DNA from: Cokeromyces recurvatus
Lineage: Eukaryota; Mucoromycota; Mucoromycetes; Mucorales; Mucoraceae
Length of the DNA stretch: 64,000 bases
Assembly (NCBI RefSeq): GCF_025118155.1
Contig: NW_026251400.1
Location: 620,001-684,000 of the forward strand
Direction: 5' to 3'
The notes under the pieces are model-generated. The model was given only the letters and a program-made list of their open reading frames with translations, was not told where the DNA came from and made no database searches. A program made the translations under genes and the position numbers. Of this stretch, positions 14,913-55,550 are shown piece after piece (the stretch's first letter is position 1; every line of letters starts with the position of its first letter).

Positions 14913-16694
14913 TTATCGCTTTCTCTTTGAACCAGTTGCACCAGAAACATTACCAGGTTCAGAAGCAAGTTCCTCTTCATCTTCTTCTACTTGATAATTC
15001 TTTAGGTTAGTTAAAAAGTGGATCAATTGCTTTTCTTCTTCTTCAGAGGCATAGGGACGTGTACAAACCCCTTTGACAGTACAGGTAAGAGGATCAGTCT
15101 TTACTTCATCGTCATCAGGACTAGAATTATCACGATGTGCTTCTACTTCCCATCCGCCTTCTTCTTCTTTACCCACTTTCCAAATTTGATATCCATAACC
15201 ACAATCTTCTTCTAAAAACTGGCGACGCTTCTCTGAAAATGTGACTTCATGTGTATCATTTGTAACGAGCGTATAAAATCTTGAATAAAAGCCCTTTTCA
15301 TTTCTTTTTTTAGCACGTAAGACGCGACCTAAACGCTGTGCTTCTTGACGACGAGAGCCAAAATGAGAAGAGACTTGAATGAGGACTGTAGCTGCAGGCA
15401 AATCAAGGGAAGTATCACCAATACGGGATAAAAAGAGCGTATTAATTTGTTTTGCTTTAAGTGATCTACGGGCTGCAACTTGATTCCAAGTGAGTTCTTC
15501 ATCTGTTTCAGGTACATCAATTTGAAAACGAGCTAGAAGCTGGCGTGCCTCTTCTGTAGGAGTACCACCATAAATAAAAGGACGGTTTATCTTTTCAGCA
15601 TACAACTTCAGAGCATCAATATGATCACAATAAACAAGGACTTTATCTCCTTTAAACTCATGATACTGAATTAGGCGTTGACAGATTTGCATTTTCTTTG
15701 GATTAAGAATGGCTAATAAACTTTTAAGATGATGTCCATGACCTAATAATCCTCCTCCCTGTGTCTGTATGCTTTCATGGGCCTTATGTACATGAGGTGT
15801 CATATCTGCTTCGATTTGTGTACAAATAACTTTTGCAATATAACCTTTATCTGCCAACTCTTTCCATTTAGCATGATATAAAGTAGGACCTACTAATGTT
15901 TCCAAATCACCAATACGTTCATCCTCACGTAACATCGTGGCTGTTAAGCCCAAACGAACTTTAGTCTTAATTTTTGAAATAGCTTTAGCAAAATTATTAG
16001 CAGGCACACAATGCACCTCATCAAGAATAATTAACCCCCATTCAGTTTTATCAATAAAGTTGCTCATACGCTTAGAGTCTGCAGTTCGATTCTTATTTTC
16101 AACAAGCATGGTATAGGTTGTAAAAAGAACACCAGAGGGCCCATTATAGGGCCATTTTTTAGCACCGGCAAACATTCCGGTCTTAGATGCCATCAATGTC
16201 GTAAATCGTAAAAATTCTTTACAGAATTGTTCCGCAGCAATGATGGTAGAACAAACAACTAATACAGGTTTTTGTATAGCACATGCAACCAAGATAGATG
16301 TTAAAGTCTTACCAGCACCACAAGGTAAGACAATAATACCTGATCGGGCGAAATGCTTAGTAGGATCAGGATCAGAGGTATCAACGATTGCTTCAAGAGC
16401 TTCACGTTGGTAAGGACGAATTTCAACTTCAGGTCTTAAAGGTAATTCTAACATATTACAAGTTTTATCTGAATTGAAAACATAATCAGGCAAGGCGGAT
16501 TTAGGTTTAGTCATACGAGGCTTAGATGCAGATAATGTAGTCTTGATTTTCTTGTCAGGTGGAGATAGTGATTGCTTTATGGATCCTTCACTTTCTTTTT
16601 TATTTTGCTCATTTGCTTCTCTTTGTCTTTGAAGATATGCTAGCATATCAGCATATTGTTGTTTTCGTTCCTTATCATTAGTTGACATGAACAT
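14913..16694 (-). CDS. XPB/Ssl2-like superfamily 2 DNA helicase, N-terminally short
   Basis: Single-exon gene, 593 aa. Helicase motifs are intact: RPYQREAL (about 93-100), Walker A LPCGAGKT (123-130), DEVH box (225-228), TAT (251-253) followed by the XPB-type RED motif (REDER, 256-260), and motif VI SRRQEAQRLGRVLR (447-460). The most similar family is XPB/Rad25, the 3'-5' translocase of TFIIH and nucleotide excision repair. True XPB proteins are usually about 780-850 aa with a large N-terminal domain before the DNA-damage-recognition and helicase parts. Here only about 90 residues precede the helicase, mostly a charged helix, and only 290 bp separate the start from the next gene, so missing exons are unlikely. 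It also has an insertion at about 391-415. It is therefore probably a paralogue rather than the TFIIH subunit. ATGs at residues 1 and 3 are both possible. Confidence 0.85.
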   Translation of the reverse strand: MFMSTNDKERKQQYADMLAYLQRQREANEQNKKESEGSIKQSLSPPDKKIKTTLSASKPRMTKPKSALPDYVFNSDKTCNMLELPLRPEVEIRPYQREALEAIVDTSDPDPTKHFARSGIIVLPCGAGKTLTSILVACAIQKPVLVVCSTIIAAEQFCKEFLRFTTLMASKTGMFAGAKKWPYNGPSGVLFTTYTMLVENKNRTADSKRMSNFIDKTEWGLIILDEVHCVPANNFAKAISKIKTKVRLGLTATMLREDERIGDLETLVGPTLYHAKWKELADKGYIAKVICTQIEADMTPHVHKAHESIQTQGGGLLGHGHHLKSLLAILNPKKMQICQRLIQYHEFKGDKVLVYCDHIDALKLYAEKINRPFIYGGTPTEEARQLLARFQIDVPETDEELTWNQVAARRSLKAKQINTLFLSRIGDTSLDLPAATVLIQVSSHFGSRRQEAQRLGRVLRAKKRNEKGFYSRFYTLVTNDTHEVTFSEKRRQFLEEDCGYGYQIWKVGKEEEGGWEVEAHRDNSSPDDDEVKTDPLTCTVKGVCTRPYASEEEEKQLIHFLTNLKNYQVEEDEEELASEPGNVSGATGSKRKR

Positions 16695-29478: not shown

Positions 29479-31354
29479 ATGTCTTCTTCGAAACTTGACT
29501 ATAGTAAAGATCATAAACATGACCTTTATTCACTTGTTGTACGAAAAGAAGCTCCTTTTAATGCTGAACCAAAATTGACAGATTTGATTAAAAATTTCAT
29601 TACACCCGAAGAATACTTTTTTTGTCGAAATCATGGTCCATTTCCTTATATTAATGAAGGAGATCATTCAATTTATCTTCAAGGCATAGGATGCAAGGGA
29701 GTCATGCAGTTTACCGTGAAGGAATTAAAAGAAAATTATGAAAAAGTATCTGTTATGATGGTGATGCAGGTAGGAAACAAAACAAAACAAAAAAAAGAGC
29801 GGATTATATCATAATGAATACAAGTTTTTATTTACATACATTTATATAGTGTGCTGTAAAAATAGATACTTTTTTTTTTGTTATAAATGACTGGGTACAA
29901 CATGATAGTTAACTCTCCTTATTATGTTATAGGGAAATAGAAGGGATGGTCTTCATAAGGTTAAACATACAAAGGGGGTAAACAAAATATAAATGTGTAA
30001 ACAAGAAAATAAACTAACATAAACCTAAAGGTCATTTGGGGGCCTGGTGCATTAGGTAATGCTGTATACAGTGGTTGTAGATTACGTGATGTCTTGGCTA
30101 CTGCTGGTATTTCTACAAAAATTGAAAATTTAGCTAAACTTCATGTATCATTTGAATCAATTGAACAGGTATATCGCATATTGTGCTAAAATGGGAATAA
30201 CAAAAAATAAAAGCTTACTCTTCTCTTCCTTACAGTGTGAAGAAGACAAATATTATGGATCATCCATTCCTTTAGTTAAAGCTCTGTAACTAAATTATAT
30301 CTTCAAATTCATTATTCATCTTTTCTAATTTTCTTTTATTTTATTTTTTATTTAGAGATGAATTTGGAGATGTTTTACTCGCATATGAGGTACTTTTTTT
30401 TTCTCTCTATCTCCCTCTTAATAATGAAAGCTGTGCTTACATTCCTTATTAGATGAATCATAAACCTTTGACAGTTGATCATGGATTTCCTATAAGAGTT
30501 GTTGTACCAGGTATATACATACATAGGAAGTGCCTAAATTACTTTGATCATAATGAAACTTACACATCTTTTTTTTTCTTCTAGGCTATATTGGTGCTCG
30601 CTCTGTCAAGTACTTGAAATCAATTACAATTCAGGATGATGAATCAAACTCTTTCTTCCAACGTAGAGACTATAAAATCTTACCAGAATCTGTAGCTGAT
30701 GAGAAACAAGCCAATGCTTATTGGTCTAAAATCCCATCTATTGGTGAATATAATGTTCAATCTTATGTTTGTAATCCTCCTGATGGAATTCATCAGGGGT
30801 CTACCTTTAACTTGAAAGTTGAAGGCTATGCACTATCAGGTAAAACATAATTAACAAAAAAAAATAGTATAGTATTCTAAACTATACATATCATTTAGGT
30901 GGAGGAAGAAGTATTCAACGCGTAGGTATGATATCATTTTTTTTATTATAGAATTTTGTTCTGCATTAATAAATAATTATTTTAAAACACAGATGTATCC
31001 GCAGATGATGGGAAGACTTGGACTGTAGCTGAACTTTATCAACCTGCTGCAGATGGAGTTAACAACTTTGGAAGAGTATGGAGTTGGTGTCTTTGGTCTG
31101 CCACAATCATTCCAAAAAAACATGTTAGAATTGTCAGCAGAGCAGGTAAAAAAAAAAGAAAAAGAAATTCCTTAGATATATAATTCACCTTATATGCTAT
31201 CTATTTTTTTTTTTCTTTCTTTCCATCTTTTATTGTTTTAGTGGATTCTGCTGGAAATATTCAACAAGAATATCCTGTTTGGAATTATCGTGGAGTAATG
31301 AATAATTCCTGGAGAACAATAGATCCAGATTCATTAAATAAGTCAAATATGTAA
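29479..31354 (+). CDS. SUOX: Sulfite oxidase (molybdenum cofactor enzyme) with a 6-nt exon
   Basis: Eleven exons: 29479-29769, 29850-29855, 29933-29977, 30031-30168, 30236-30285, 30356-30389, 30453-30510, 30585-30839, 30899-30925, 30993-31145 and 31242-31354, giving 389 aa. It oxidises sulfite to sulfate, probably in mitochondria. Core motifs: FFCRNHGPFPYI, WGPGALGNAVYSG, VDHGFPIRVVVPGYIGARSVK, then the C-terminal dimerisation domain with VDVSADDGKTW and WSWCLWSATI. There is no cytochrome b5 domain, unlike the animal enzyme. The family block CAGNRR, whose Cys ligates molybdenum, is restored only if the 6-nt exon TGTGCT at 29850-29855 (Cys98-Ala99) is spliced in. It is flanked by a TATAG acceptor and a GTAAAA donor, and all other joins are in phase. 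Confidence 0.92.
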
Positions 31355-31594: not shown

Positions 31595-34500
31595 TTAACG
31601 TCTTTGCTTTCTACGAAGATAGACCAAGATGATAAATACGATGATATTAAAGATAAAGTAACCACATAAAATACCAAAGTTGCGCCATCGATGTGCTACA
31701 TCCCACTCAAACTGAGTACTATAAAACTCTGAACCGGACTTGTATGTACAATAACCACACATGTCGGGTTGAGAGGCATCTGGATTTGCAATATAACCTG
31801 GACCACCATAAGAGAAAAAGCGTTGCATATATTCACCACATGTCTGTCCAGGTGGGGGACTGAATTTAAGAAGATCAGAATCAACACAACGCACTTCAAG
31901 GTTCCATAGTTCATTTACCGTGAGCCCCTCAATATAATAATGGAATGGATCTAGCCAATACATCCAAGAGCTCCAAAATTTAGGCATCTGAGAGGGAGGC
32001 TGCATCAAACCAGCAAATAAGATAAGTAAAGAGATAATAAGGGGATTAATGACAGCGGCCATTAAGGGTGACTCAGAGAAGGCAGCGATCACGAAACCAA
32101 GTGAGACAGCCCAACAGACAAGGATAGTGAAGGTAATATAAAAGTAACCACATGATTCAGAACTAGCATTCAAACCTGTAGTCCAATAAAAGCCAAACAT
32201 GAAACAAGCTGAATAGAAGAATATATATGGAATTTCGACAAGGATAGCAGAGAGTGCAAATGGAAGCCAGCCATAGTATCGAGAGGCGTACTCACGTCTA
32301 AAATAAAACCTTTCCGTAATAAATTTGGGCTGAGCTAAAATGATCAGTGTCATGGCCATGATGAAAGTACCAAAGAGGGCAAAGAGTTTGTATTGCATAT
32401 CAGTAGATGAGTTTCCAAGTTTCCAGAATGTAAAGCCTGTAATTAAAGCCGTGAACATAACGTTCAAGAAACGACCTATGTTATAATCTGGAGATCTCCA
32501 ATAGGCTAAAGCAATGCGCTTATAAACTAATTTAAATTGAGTTGTAAAATTGGTTGCATATGTTTTTGCAGGACGAGTAGGATTCGGGTTAGAGGAGTTA
32601 TGAATATCTTCAAGTTCCTCTCTTAAAGCTTTACATTCTTTAGAGTCCTCCCAAATAGTAGCCCAGTCAGCTTTTGCTTTACCAGCAGTACCTGCACCAA
32701 CACACTCCAAAATGTATTCAGCGGGGTTAGCATCTGGTGAGCATTTGGGTGCACCATTCTGTTCAAAGTAATTAATCATCGTACGTGAATCTTTACCAAC
32801 TTCGCCATAATAAGCAGTACGACCCCCTCGGACTAAAAGTAAAATATGATCAAAGTGCTCAAAGAGTACAGCAGAGGGTTGATGAATCGTACACAAGACC
32901 GGCCAACCAGAATCAGCAAGCTTACGAATGAATCGAATAATATTGTAAGAACTTTGAGCGTCTAAACCTGATGTAGGTTCATCAAGGAATAATAACTTGG
33001 GTTTACCAACTAACTCTACACCAATCGTTAGACGCTTACGTTCTTCAACAGAGATGCCATATCCACTTTCAACCTGACCAACCTGTGCATCACCAATGTC
33101 TTGCATTTCTAAAAGCTCTAGAATCGTTTCAACGTATTTGTCTTTTTCCTCTTTAGGAACTTCAGCAGGCTGACGAAGATAAGCAGAGAAACGAAGTGCT
33201 TCACGAACGGTCACCATTGGTTGATGAACATCCATTTGCTCACAGTACCCTGTGATACGCTCAAAGTCGCACATTAGGGCCTCATCATTCAAATAAACAC
33301 GGCCCTCAACTTTACCAATCGTTTTACGACGAGCAAGTACATCTAACAGTGTTGTTTTACCTGCACCAGAGGAGCCCATGAGTGCTGTCAAATGTCCAGG
33401 ACGAACGATACCACTTACATTATTCAAAAGTTGAAGTTGACCTCCCTTTACAGGAACAGTATAGTTGATATCTTGCCAAGAGAAGGTCGTACCGTCAGAG
33501 ACAGTACCCATTTCATCACTAATATGGGCCTGTTTACAACGACGAGCTTCCTCCTCCTCTTCTGTACGATGCTTAGGCGCCTTCCCTGGCAAATAAAGTT
33601 TAGTAAGTGTGCTTGATTTACTCAAGCCAACTAACTCCATAGCAGCGGCTGTCATGAAAGTAAATAAGAGGAAGAAACCAATGATGACCACAAAATTGGG
33701 TGCCCAAAGGTGGTTTGGATTATAAGATAAAGAGTCGATTAGATAATCATCACCACGTACAAAATTTTCGCCAGGACGGCCTCCTGCCATAGTACAAACC
33801 TTGTAATTCCAATCATCATATCCAGGACCAAAAGGAATTGAATTACCTGGGCCCTCACAACTATACCTTTGGCCACTAAGTTCATTCACTAGTAGACCTT
33901 TGTAACCATAGGTTAATGGATTAATCCAATAGATCCAGTACAACCAAGGGTGCATCTTACTCCATGGAATCGTGTAACCTGTATAATTGGTCACAGCAAT
34001 CAAAATGACACCAGAGACCTGTGTGGCCACGAAGAAGCTAGATGATATGGCACCAAAGAATCGGAAAAACCCGTTCATGCACATATTGATGAAGAACAAA
34101 AAGATAAAGAATGTAAAGAAAGCACCAGCGGTCAACCTAAGGCCCATCATGAAATAAGCACAGATTTCAAATAAAAGTACTTGTATAATAGCATAAGGAA
34201 TATCCAACATGACTTGTGCTAAATAGAAGGCTGAAGGTCGATAAAGTGCGTACTGTTTATGTTTTTCTAGAATGGGTCTACCCATTAAGAAATTAACAAG
34301 TTCGGATTGTGAGATAAAAGCATTGAAAAGGACTGAGAAGAAGAGGGCACCACCTCTGGAGAAGGCGCCAGCACCATCCTGACTCATCTTAAAGAAACAG
34401 GAAGCAGTAATAAGGGATTGGATGAGAATTGTACCATAACGGGAGATGAGTGCACCAACATCAGTGATATTAAGATAGAATTGACGAATGGTAAGGGCTT

Positions 34501-36090
34501 TCACTTGCTGATAGAAGGAGGCAGTATAGGGTTGCTTTTTATTGGCATGCTTTTGGTGCTCTTCATCGACTGCTTTTTTAAATGTCTCTGAAGGCTTTTC
34601 CCTTTCTATAAATGCTTCATATTCCGCAAAGTCCTCCATGACTTCCTTGTAAATTCGTGATTCAAAGTATCTCTTTTCAAAGTCAGTAGCAAACCGAGGG
34701 GCAGTCTCTTCAAATCCAGGTTTAAATTCGCGTTCATTAGGATTACATAGACCTGTCAAGAAATCAGGAGTTGATTTTCGAGGTGGACAATGAAAACCGA
34801 GAGATTCGAAATATTCTTTTGCATAACATGTAGGACCAAAATAAAGACAACGACCTTCATCTAACAGAAGTACCTTATCAAAGAGTGCAAATATACCGTT
34901 CGAAGCTTGATAAAGGGTTGCAATCGTTGTCTTTTGGAAAATATCTGTCATGATACGAAGAGAACGAACATAATCAAGAGCAGAGGCAGCATCAAGACCA
35001 CGAGTAGAACAATCCCAACAATTAATAGAGCTTGAAGTTGTCATCTGTTCTGCAATCGAAAGTCGTTTACGCTCACCACCTGATAAACCACGAATAAAGG
35101 CATTACCCACAGTTGTATTCATTTGTTTCGTGAGACCGAGCATGCTACCCAGCATATATAAAATTTTGTTGACAAAGTCTGATTTGGTTTCGTTCGGGAG
35201 ACGTTTCCCGGGCGTCTTTAAGCGAAGGGCAAATTGAAGTGTTTGCTTTGTGGTTAAAGTAGGATAATGCTGATCTTCTTCTTCATTGTAACAAACTTGA
35301 CCACGATAATACTTAGAAAACAGATTTGCGTCAATACCACCATAGCTGACAAGGCCATCCACATCGGTAAATGAACCACACATATTAGCCATCACTTTCA
35401 GAAATGAGGTACAACCCGCACCAGGTCTACCTAGAACAAGTAGCATTTCACCTTCTTTACAATGCCCTGTTAAATTGTGAAGAATAGTTGTTTTATCTTT
35501 ACTAGCTCCAATACCCAACAATTTCCAGAATTGAAGAAAAGTAAACACAGTTGGAATAGTATGTGCATCAGCAGATAGACCCTAAAATTTGGATTTAAAA
35601 AAAAATTAGTAACCATGTTGCATCTATGTATGTATGCATTACATACTTTGACTGTCAAATTTTTCCAAATCAAACCCAAATGCTTTAATTCATGACCAGA
35701 ATTATGTTGATCCGTACGAAGGCCGTTTAAGAATTCACTAAGATTAAATTCTTCTTCTTCTGCCTTTCCTTCTTCTATTTGATTAGCACGAATAGAATTA
35801 CGACTGATACGAGATAATTCTCGCTTCATTTGAATGTATTCACCCTTAGCAGCTAACAAAAAAAAAAAAAAATCAGGTTAGTTTAAGAGTCACTAATAAA
35901 TTCTATGTCCATTATATCAAGTACCATCAATGTCAACTGCATTTGCGCTGGGCTCACCGAAATTATGGTTCTCTACTTCATAATCTCTGTTTCCATTATA
36001 ATAGACAGTAGTTGTTGATTCACTGTTTGGTTGCTGATAATAATTTCGATTTTCTTCTCTACCTGTCGGTAGATTTTGATTATAAGACAT
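31595..36090 (-). CDS. PDR/CDR-type ABC multidrug transporter (ABCG full-size)
   Basis: Exons 36090-35925, 35852-35647 and 35581-31595, 1452 aa, full length for the pleiotropic drug resistance family. Layout is NBD1-TMD1-NBD2-TMD2. NBD1 has the family's deviant Walker A GRPGAGCTSFLK (Cys for Lys, about residue 175), signature GLSGGERKRLSIAE and Walker B-like CWDCSTRGLDAA. NBD2 has canonical Walker A GSSGAGKTTLLD (about 860), the degenerate linker SVEERKRLTIGVEL, and Walker B LLFLDEPTSGLDAQ. Each TMD has six helices and extracellular loops rich in Cys/Gly, including FGFYWTTGLNASSE. It pumps hydrophobic compounds, including azole-like drugs in relatives, across the plasma membrane. Substrates cannot be inferred. 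Confidence 0.96.
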
Positions 36091-54656: not shown

Positions 54657-55550
54657 TTAATTACCTGCTGTAGCAGTCATAGTAGAATTAGTATTAGTAG
54701 TAATGTAATTAGGAGTATTATTATGAATGGAAGAAGAAGACGTAGAAGATTCGATGATCAATGAAGAATGATTACTATTAGTACTACTACTACTAATACT
54801 ACTACTACTACTATTATTATTATTATTAATATTACTACTACTTTTTAAATTTTCATCTAGTGCGTTAGCAATAGCCACAGCTGAAATTGAAATAGCTTTC
54901 TTGAGCTGATCAAATAAATCTTGTGTTGTGTCCAAAGATAAAGAAGTTGCTGGTTCTGCAATAGCGACACTAGTTGGCTCCAGTTTCATCTTTTCTCTTT
55001 TTAAATCTCTTTCCAATGCATCCAAGAAAAGTCGATCATGAGGTACAGAAAACCAAAAGAAGACCTTTTGCTTCTTTTGTGTTCTTATGCAATTATTCTT
55101 GTAGAGCATCTCAAGGAAGGATGACTTGGGTTCCTCAAGTGAGGCATCTATGCCAGGCTTCAAATTGCGTAAATCAGAGAATATACCTTCTTCAAATTTT
55201 TTTAAATTTGTTACTGGTCTACCAAAGAGATGGAAACGATACAAGAGGCAACGAACGATATCTGTTCCTGTCACATGAAACAGATCATTCCAAAAGACAC
55301 AAGAGATATTTTCCCCTGTTGGTAAATGAAACGATTTGACTTGTTGATGAGGATCCCAATAGCTTGTAGCTGTACCTAAAAAATATTTGAGTTCATCCAT
55401 TTGTTTCAAACGCTCCTCTGTATTATCATTTGTTGGTGCTGGAAGTCTAACAGAAGTTGTATTCAAGGCTATTGTAGAAACAATTGGAACTGAATGTAAT
55501 ATTTGCTTTTCATTACTAAATCTTTCATCTTTTTGTTGGTTACTGAGCAT
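54657..55550 (-). CDS. STE12: STE12-like transcription factor, N-terminal part with complete STE DNA-binding domain
   Basis: Open frame of 297 codons, with a probable GT donor at about 54,660 after ATAG (TATAG-type acceptor further down at 54,407). Residues about 45-190 are the STE homeodomain-like DNA-binding domain: GTATSYWDPHQQVKSFHLPT, GENISCVFWNDLFHVTGTD, FGRPVTNLKKFEEGIFSDLR, KNNCIRTQKKQKVFFWFSVP and HDRLFLDALERDLKREKM. A Ser/Asn-rich linker encoded by AGT/AAT repeats follows. Known role: target of the mating/filamentation MAP kinase pathway. Fungi outside the Saccharomycetes carry two C-terminal C2H2 fingers, found here only as frameshifted pieces (53,609-54,406). Confidence 0.88.
   Translation of the reverse strand: MLSNQQKDERFSNEKQILHSVPIVSTIALNTTSVRLPAPTNDNTEERLKQMDELKYFLGTATSYWDPHQQVKSFHLPTGENISCVFWNDLFHVTGTDIVRCLLYRFHLFGRPVTNLKKFEEGIFSDLRNLKPGIDASLEEPKSSFLEMLYKNNCIRTQKKQKVFFWFSVPHDRLFLDALERDLKREKMKLEPTSVAIAEPATSLSLDTTQDLFDQLKKAISISAVAIANALDENLKSSSNINNNNNSSSSSISSSSTNSNHSSLIIESSTSSSSIHNNTPNYITTNTNSTMTATAGN

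Follow-up and report, generated by a model that had tools for sequence, protein, structure and literature searches.

A probable six-nucleotide microexon for the molybdenum-ligand cysteine of sulfite oxidase in Cokeromyces recurvatus

The sulfite oxidase gene and its divided CAGNRR block

A sulfite oxidase gene of Cokeromyces recurvatus, a fungus of the Mucorales (Mucoraceae), raises the question of where its mRNA obtains the codon for the cysteine that binds molybdenum. The gene lies in a 64-kb window, which is the whole stretch of DNA analysed here (bases 620001 to 684000 of contig C6 in a genome assembly of 28 Mb and 64 contigs). A sequence-only reading of this window had proposed that this codon is supplied by an exon of only six bases, TGTGCT, and that inclusion or skipping of this exon could act as an on/off splice switch. 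The proposal of a microexon bearing the molybdenum ligand stood up to the analyses described here; that of a switch gained no support from them.

The gene occupies positions 29479 to 31354 of the forward strand and has 11 exons, separated by 10 introns that are all of the GT-AG type and 53 to 96 nt long. Translation of the 11 exons gave a protein of 389 residues without a single difference from P0001, the protein deposited for C. recurvatus; P0001 may have been built from homology rather than from transcripts. Exon 1 (29479..29769) begins with the ATG start codon, encodes residues 1 to 97 of the protein and of P0001, and ends in CAG, followed by GTAGGA. Intron 1 (29770..29849; 80 nt) extends from this GTAGGA to TATAG and contains a candidate branch point, TTTAC, which begins 19 nt ahead of the intron end. 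The six bases TGTGCT of exon 2 (29850..29855), encoding Cys98 and Ala99, follow; this exon is supported by P0001 and by the best splice form described below. Intron 2 (29856..29932; 77 nt) extends from GTAAAA to TATAG, with a candidate branch point, TTAAC, which begins 24 nt ahead of the intron end, and exon 3 (29933..29977; 45 nt, GNRRDGLHKVKHTKG) opens with GGAAATAGAAGG, encoding GNRR. The translation and P0001 also define exon 4 (30031..30168), exon 5 (30236..30285), exon 6 (30356..30389; 34 nt), exon 7 (30453..30510; 58 nt), exon 8 (30585..30839), exon 10 (30993..31145) and exon 11 (31242..31354, including the stop codon). Exon 9 (30899..30925; 27 nt) makes a second exon of very small size in the gene, and its residues are present in P0001.

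An internal exon of about 30 nt or less was regarded as a microexon. TGTGCT has splice sites on both sides, and its TATAG acceptor, its GTAAAA donor, the lengths of the two flanking introns and phase 0 at both junctions were all found as had been claimed. The effect on the CAGNRR block was likewise as the earlier reading had it: joining of 29769 directly to 29933 yields MQGNRR, while joining through the six bases yields MQCAGNRR. The flanking introns are in line with the other eight in length, and the donor hexamer GTAAAA of intron 2 also opens introns 8 and 10 of the same gene. A point against the exon is that the exon side of the intron 2 donor is GCT, CAG being what precedes five of the 10 introns, intron 1 included.

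The protein matched the oxidoreductase molybdopterin-binding domain (PF00174; 165.8 bits against a cut-off of 24) and the Mo-co dimerisation domain (PF03404; 103.1 bits against a cut-off of 22.7). No heme domain or further Pfam match was detected at an E value of 0.001, and the protein was therefore classed as a sulfite oxidase without a heme domain. Among solved chains, the best match by sequence was to the sulfite oxidase 1ogp (292 bits), a plant enzyme, followed by the 1sox group of sulfite oxidases (269 to 278 bits), with the nitrate reductases 2bih and 2bii at 167 and 166 bits; by these scores sulfite oxidases, and not nitrate reductases, are the nearer kin of the protein. Oxidation of sulfite at a molybdenum centre is predicted from this family membership. 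When exon 2 was included, Cys98 of the protein was aligned with Cys98 of 1ogp_A. According to PMC10574614, this cysteine is invariant across sulfite oxidases and nitrate reductases, where it acts as a ligand of the molybdenum. A pseudogene was ruled out, the entire gene being open and conserved.

The C-terminus of the protein (31337-31354) reads NKSNM and thus ends in SNM. Among the C-termini of 35 Mucorales homologues (see below), 8 ended in SNL, SNI or SNM and 19 in N followed by L, I or M. Plant sulfite oxidase ends in SNL, a peroxisomal signal; because the SNM-type ends resemble it, a peroxisomal location of sulfite oxidase in these fungi may be a candidate idea worth testing. The tail-to-tail neighbour of the gene is an open frame of 1,317 aa on the reverse strand (31595-35548) with domains of a PDR/CDR-type ABC transporter. 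Elsewhere in the window, the reverse strand carries an open frame that encodes 593 aa and has helicase domains of the XPB/ERCC3 type (14913-16694) and one with an STE-like transcription factor domain (54657-55550; 188 bits). No RNA family was detected in the window at the gathering score.

Scoring of alternative splice forms

Splice forms of the region from 29700 to 29960 were enumerated with zero, one or two GT/GC-AG introns of at least 40 nt, the later exons being held fixed. A total of 1,634 forms was obtained, and the 186 distinct open proteins among them were scored on two profiles. The close profile was made from P0002 to P0035 without P0009, P0033 and P0034 (31 sequences, two of them Umbelopsis-like) and the distant profile from P0036 to P0120 without P0073, P0079 and P0086 (82 sequences); P0001 was in neither. 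The form containing the microexon ranked first on both profiles, with 715.4 bits on the close profile (runner-up, 705.9 bits) and 521.8 bits on the distant profile (runner-up, 511.9 bits). The form in which the microexon is skipped scored 699.8 bits (rank 4) and 505.5 bits (rank 5), about 16 bits lower in each case. None of the 186 scored proteins surpassed the microexon form.

The nearest competitors were forms with a different small exon at the same place, such as one of 3 nt, TGT, followed by a GC donor, or one of 30 nt (29850-29879). Both are open, and they occupied ranks 2 and 3 on the close profile and ranks 2 and 4 on the distant one. These forms scored 9.5 to 14.5 bits lower than the microexon form, either lose the alanine or insert eight residues into a conserved block, and disagree with P0001 as deposited; we regard exons of this kind as very unlikely. 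On Pfam, the skipped protein still scored 150.6 bits, above the cut-offs, and hence a domain search would miss the loss of Cys-Ala.

The possibility that a Cys-Ala exon of this type arises by chance was examined by dinucleotide shuffling, repeated 200,000 times, of the 163-nt stretch between exons 1 and 3, at least 40 nt of intron being left on either side. An AG-N6-GT arrangement with any letters was common (31,494 of 200,000 shuffles), while one reading Cys-Ala was found in 9 of 200,000, making a chance origin unlikely. The real stretch contains a single AG-N6-GT, namely, the microexon, and a scan of the two strands of the 64-kb window for AGTGYGCNGT gave a single hit.

A search of the genome in which the best candidates were scored detected one other PF00174 gene, a nitrate reductase-like gene on another contig (G000:C15, L001/L002). 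Besides molybdenum and dimerisation domains, it carries cytochrome b5 and FAD-binding domains, the make-up of a nitrate reductase; its best match among the solved chains was to a heme-domain sulfite oxidase (179.6 bits), with nitrate reductase at 164.1 bits. The two genes share the molybdenum domain and the CAGNRR block, but in the C15 gene this block lies within one exon (TGTTGTGCTGGTAATAGACG), TGTGCT and GGTAATAGACG being contiguous with no intron inside. It is therefore the window gene, and not the motif, that accounts for the split, and no paralogue with the same split structure was found among the scored candidates. The introns measured in the C15 gene were 56, 188 and 104 nt long; given the intron of 188 nt, length alone would be no bar to an intron of 163 nt in the window gene.

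Losses of cysteine and alanine in related proteins

Homologues were obtained by a search that returned 5,580 proteins, representatives of 90% identity clusters, the best 120 of which were examined. Thirty-five of these 120 were from Mucorales, 34 by name and one, P0005, because it is 86% identical to proteins of Mucor mucedo (P0007), Gilbertella and Pilaira. The CAGNRR block was kept in 30 of the 35. Exactly residues 98 and 99 were absent from three (P0009 of Rhizopus azygosporus, P0034 of Absidia glauca and P0073 of Phascolomyces articulosus), and P0033 (Apophysomyces) lacked exactly residues 98 to 114, corresponding to exons 2 and 3 of the window gene. Comparison of the protein sequences hence yielded exon-exact deletions in 4 of the 35; the remaining protein, P0079, is truncated at its N-terminus and begins downstream of the block.

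These four proteins are spread over the Rhizopodaceae, Cunninghamellaceae, Lichtheimiaceae and, following NCBI, Mucoraceae. An identical loss of two residues in separate families would be hard to attribute to evolution and easy to attribute to a microexon missed by gene finders. As the residues lost include the same invariant ligand, in well-conserved proteins of separate families, a missed microexon is favoured; the likeliest explanation would be a microexon that is conserved in Mucorales and is at times overlooked by gene finders. P0034 and P0073 are generally imperfect gene models, given an odd stretch near residue 207 in the former and further gaps in the latter, and P0073 is a poor model on account of those gaps (residues 117 to 127 and 153 to 160). 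Loss of the same two residues in separate families also suggests that the exon dates from before the divergence of these families, the DNA structure in the relatives being deduced from protein deletions, which mark exon borders indirectly.

Two homologues probably represent transcripts, because short contigs encode a full protein without interruption. P0005 is an uninterrupted frame of 385 residues from a 1,243-base contig, and P0030, which is 81% identical to P0029 of Umbelopsis, is a full uninterrupted protein on a contig of 1,497 bases; CAGNRR is present in both. Hence, the mRNA of these relatives probably carries the Cys-Ala codons, an observation that is silent on whether a microexon supplies them there. 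Outside Mucorales, P0086 of Lunasporangiospora selenospora passes from EEHR straight to CAGNRR, the stretch just before the block being absent and the protein resuming exactly at the cysteine. This gap would be in keeping with an intron in the position of intron 1 and suggests, as a hint, an older origin.

The same deposited proteins could be taken as evidence that exon 1 is joined to exon 3 only, producing an inactive or repurposed protein without the cysteine, with TGTGCT as a chance match; P0009, P0034 and P0073 were, after all, deposited without Cys-Ala. The frequency of such a match in the shuffles (9 of 200,000), the profile score lower by about 16 bits, the presence of Cys-Ala in the deposited C. 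recurvatus protein and the intact, conserved state of the remainder of the gene all argue against it, and we consider this the least probable of the explanations.

A regulated switch, as put forward in the sequence-only reading, would involve conditional skipping to give a stable mRNA for an enzyme without its molybdenum ligand, which would set the level of the enzyme or, sulfite oxidase being a dimer, act as a dominant-negative partner. Skipping was confirmed to keep the frame, while in a transcript that retains either flanking intron a stop codon follows 14 or 18 codons on (14 for intron 1); a switch is therefore possible but not likely. In its favour, the proteins deposited for three relatives match the skipped form where the microexon would lie, and precedents are on record: inclusion or skipping with glucose is described for the microexon in Xlr2 of Trichoderma virens (PMC11121469), and exon skipping in potato invertase is described on exposure to cold (PMC8483784). 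The skipped proteins, however, are deposited predictions and are best explained as missed exons, which fit better than a regulated exon; a length that preserves the frame is, by itself, weak evidence, and plant microexons are reported to show intron retention more commonly (PMC8831610). The switch was thus left unsupported, and we regard it as unlikely. Equally unlikely is its broader form, in which an ancient two-codon exon would have been kept through the Mucorales as a switch, a stable subunit without the cysteine would lower sulfite oxidation and some of the deposited Mucorales proteins would be real copies of this subunit.

P0001, the profile scores, the shuffles and the relatives concurred in supporting a two-codon exon that carries the molybdenum-ligand cysteine. 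With a probability that we put at about 0.88, positions 29850-29855 are a real microexon of the sulfite oxidase gene, most likely present in essentially all functional mRNA and older than the species. Its sequence and frame, the identity with P0001, the fit to the profiles and the match between the deletions in relatives and the exon borders were observed directly; the splicing of this exon and its constitutive character are inferred.

A splicing model and comparison with known microexons

A 6-nt exon comes close to the smallest size with which splicing can cope. In the mechanism that we propose, two short introns of ordinary size would each be recognised as a unit (intron definition, the subject, reportedly, of a fission-yeast study by Romfo in 2000) and be removed successively, leaving TGT GCT between them to encode Cys98, the thiolate ligand of the molybdenum, and Ala99. 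Recognition intron by intron is probable because introns 1 and 2 are so short, and the tiny exon would then probably not need to bind factors at both of its ends simultaneously. The candidate branch point of intron 2 (TTAAC) is a good one, and that of intron 1 (TTTAC) is weaker. If the order of removal matters, our guess would be that intron 2 is removed first; in potato invertase, the downstream intron is reported to be removed first (PMC4674806).

A microexon that encodes a metal ligand and is seemingly order-wide would offer a straightforward natural system in which to follow the removal of short introns on either side of a tiny exon. It also bears on annotation, as P0009, P0034 and P0073 look inactive on paper, probably through one missed two-codon exon; scanning of proteins for exact losses of two to five residues at invariant motifs could reveal more fungal microexons. 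Few of these are in print, according to PMC11121469. No description of a sulfite oxidase microexon was present among the matches listed for microexons in fungi, Mucor or Mucorales and for sulfite oxidase, which came mainly from non-subscription literature; in the match for Mucor, microexons were mentioned only as a setting of a read mapper. A Cokeromyces was among the fungi sequenced in PMC4961843, the RNA-seq libraries named in its accessible text being from other genera.

The nearest parallel is the 9-nt mini-exon of plant acid invertase, likewise a tiny in-frame exon that forms part of a conserved enzyme motif. This motif includes the catalytic aspartate, and the exon skipped in the cold in potato invertase in the work of Bournay (1996) is reportedly this mini-exon. 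It is described as encoding part of the beta-fructosidase motif, as often being unannotated and as absent from the annotations checked for rice and maize (PMC8831610), and its splicing has been tested with constructs (PMC4674806). The invertase exon is from plants and an unrelated enzyme, has 9 nt and is in phase 1, whereas the window exon is from a fungus, has 6 nt, is in phase 0 and is known from DNA. Exons as small as the window exon or smaller occur in chicken cTNT (a microexon of 6 nt) and in Arabidopsis APC11 (an exon of 1 nt), both reported to be constitutive (PMC4674806); these are from an animal and a plant and have been studied experimentally, and no catalytic residue is named for them in the accessible text of that source. 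The Xlr2 microexon of T. virens is, like the window exon, from a filamentous fungus and is called by its authors the first functional one in such an organism (PMC11121469). It is regulated by glucose, was demonstrated in transcripts and decides the DNA-binding domain of a transcription factor, whereas the evidence for the window exon comes from the genome. The window exon would thus be a further case of a very small exon at a key motif, one that appears to stand out by its position at a metal ligand and by its apparent age.
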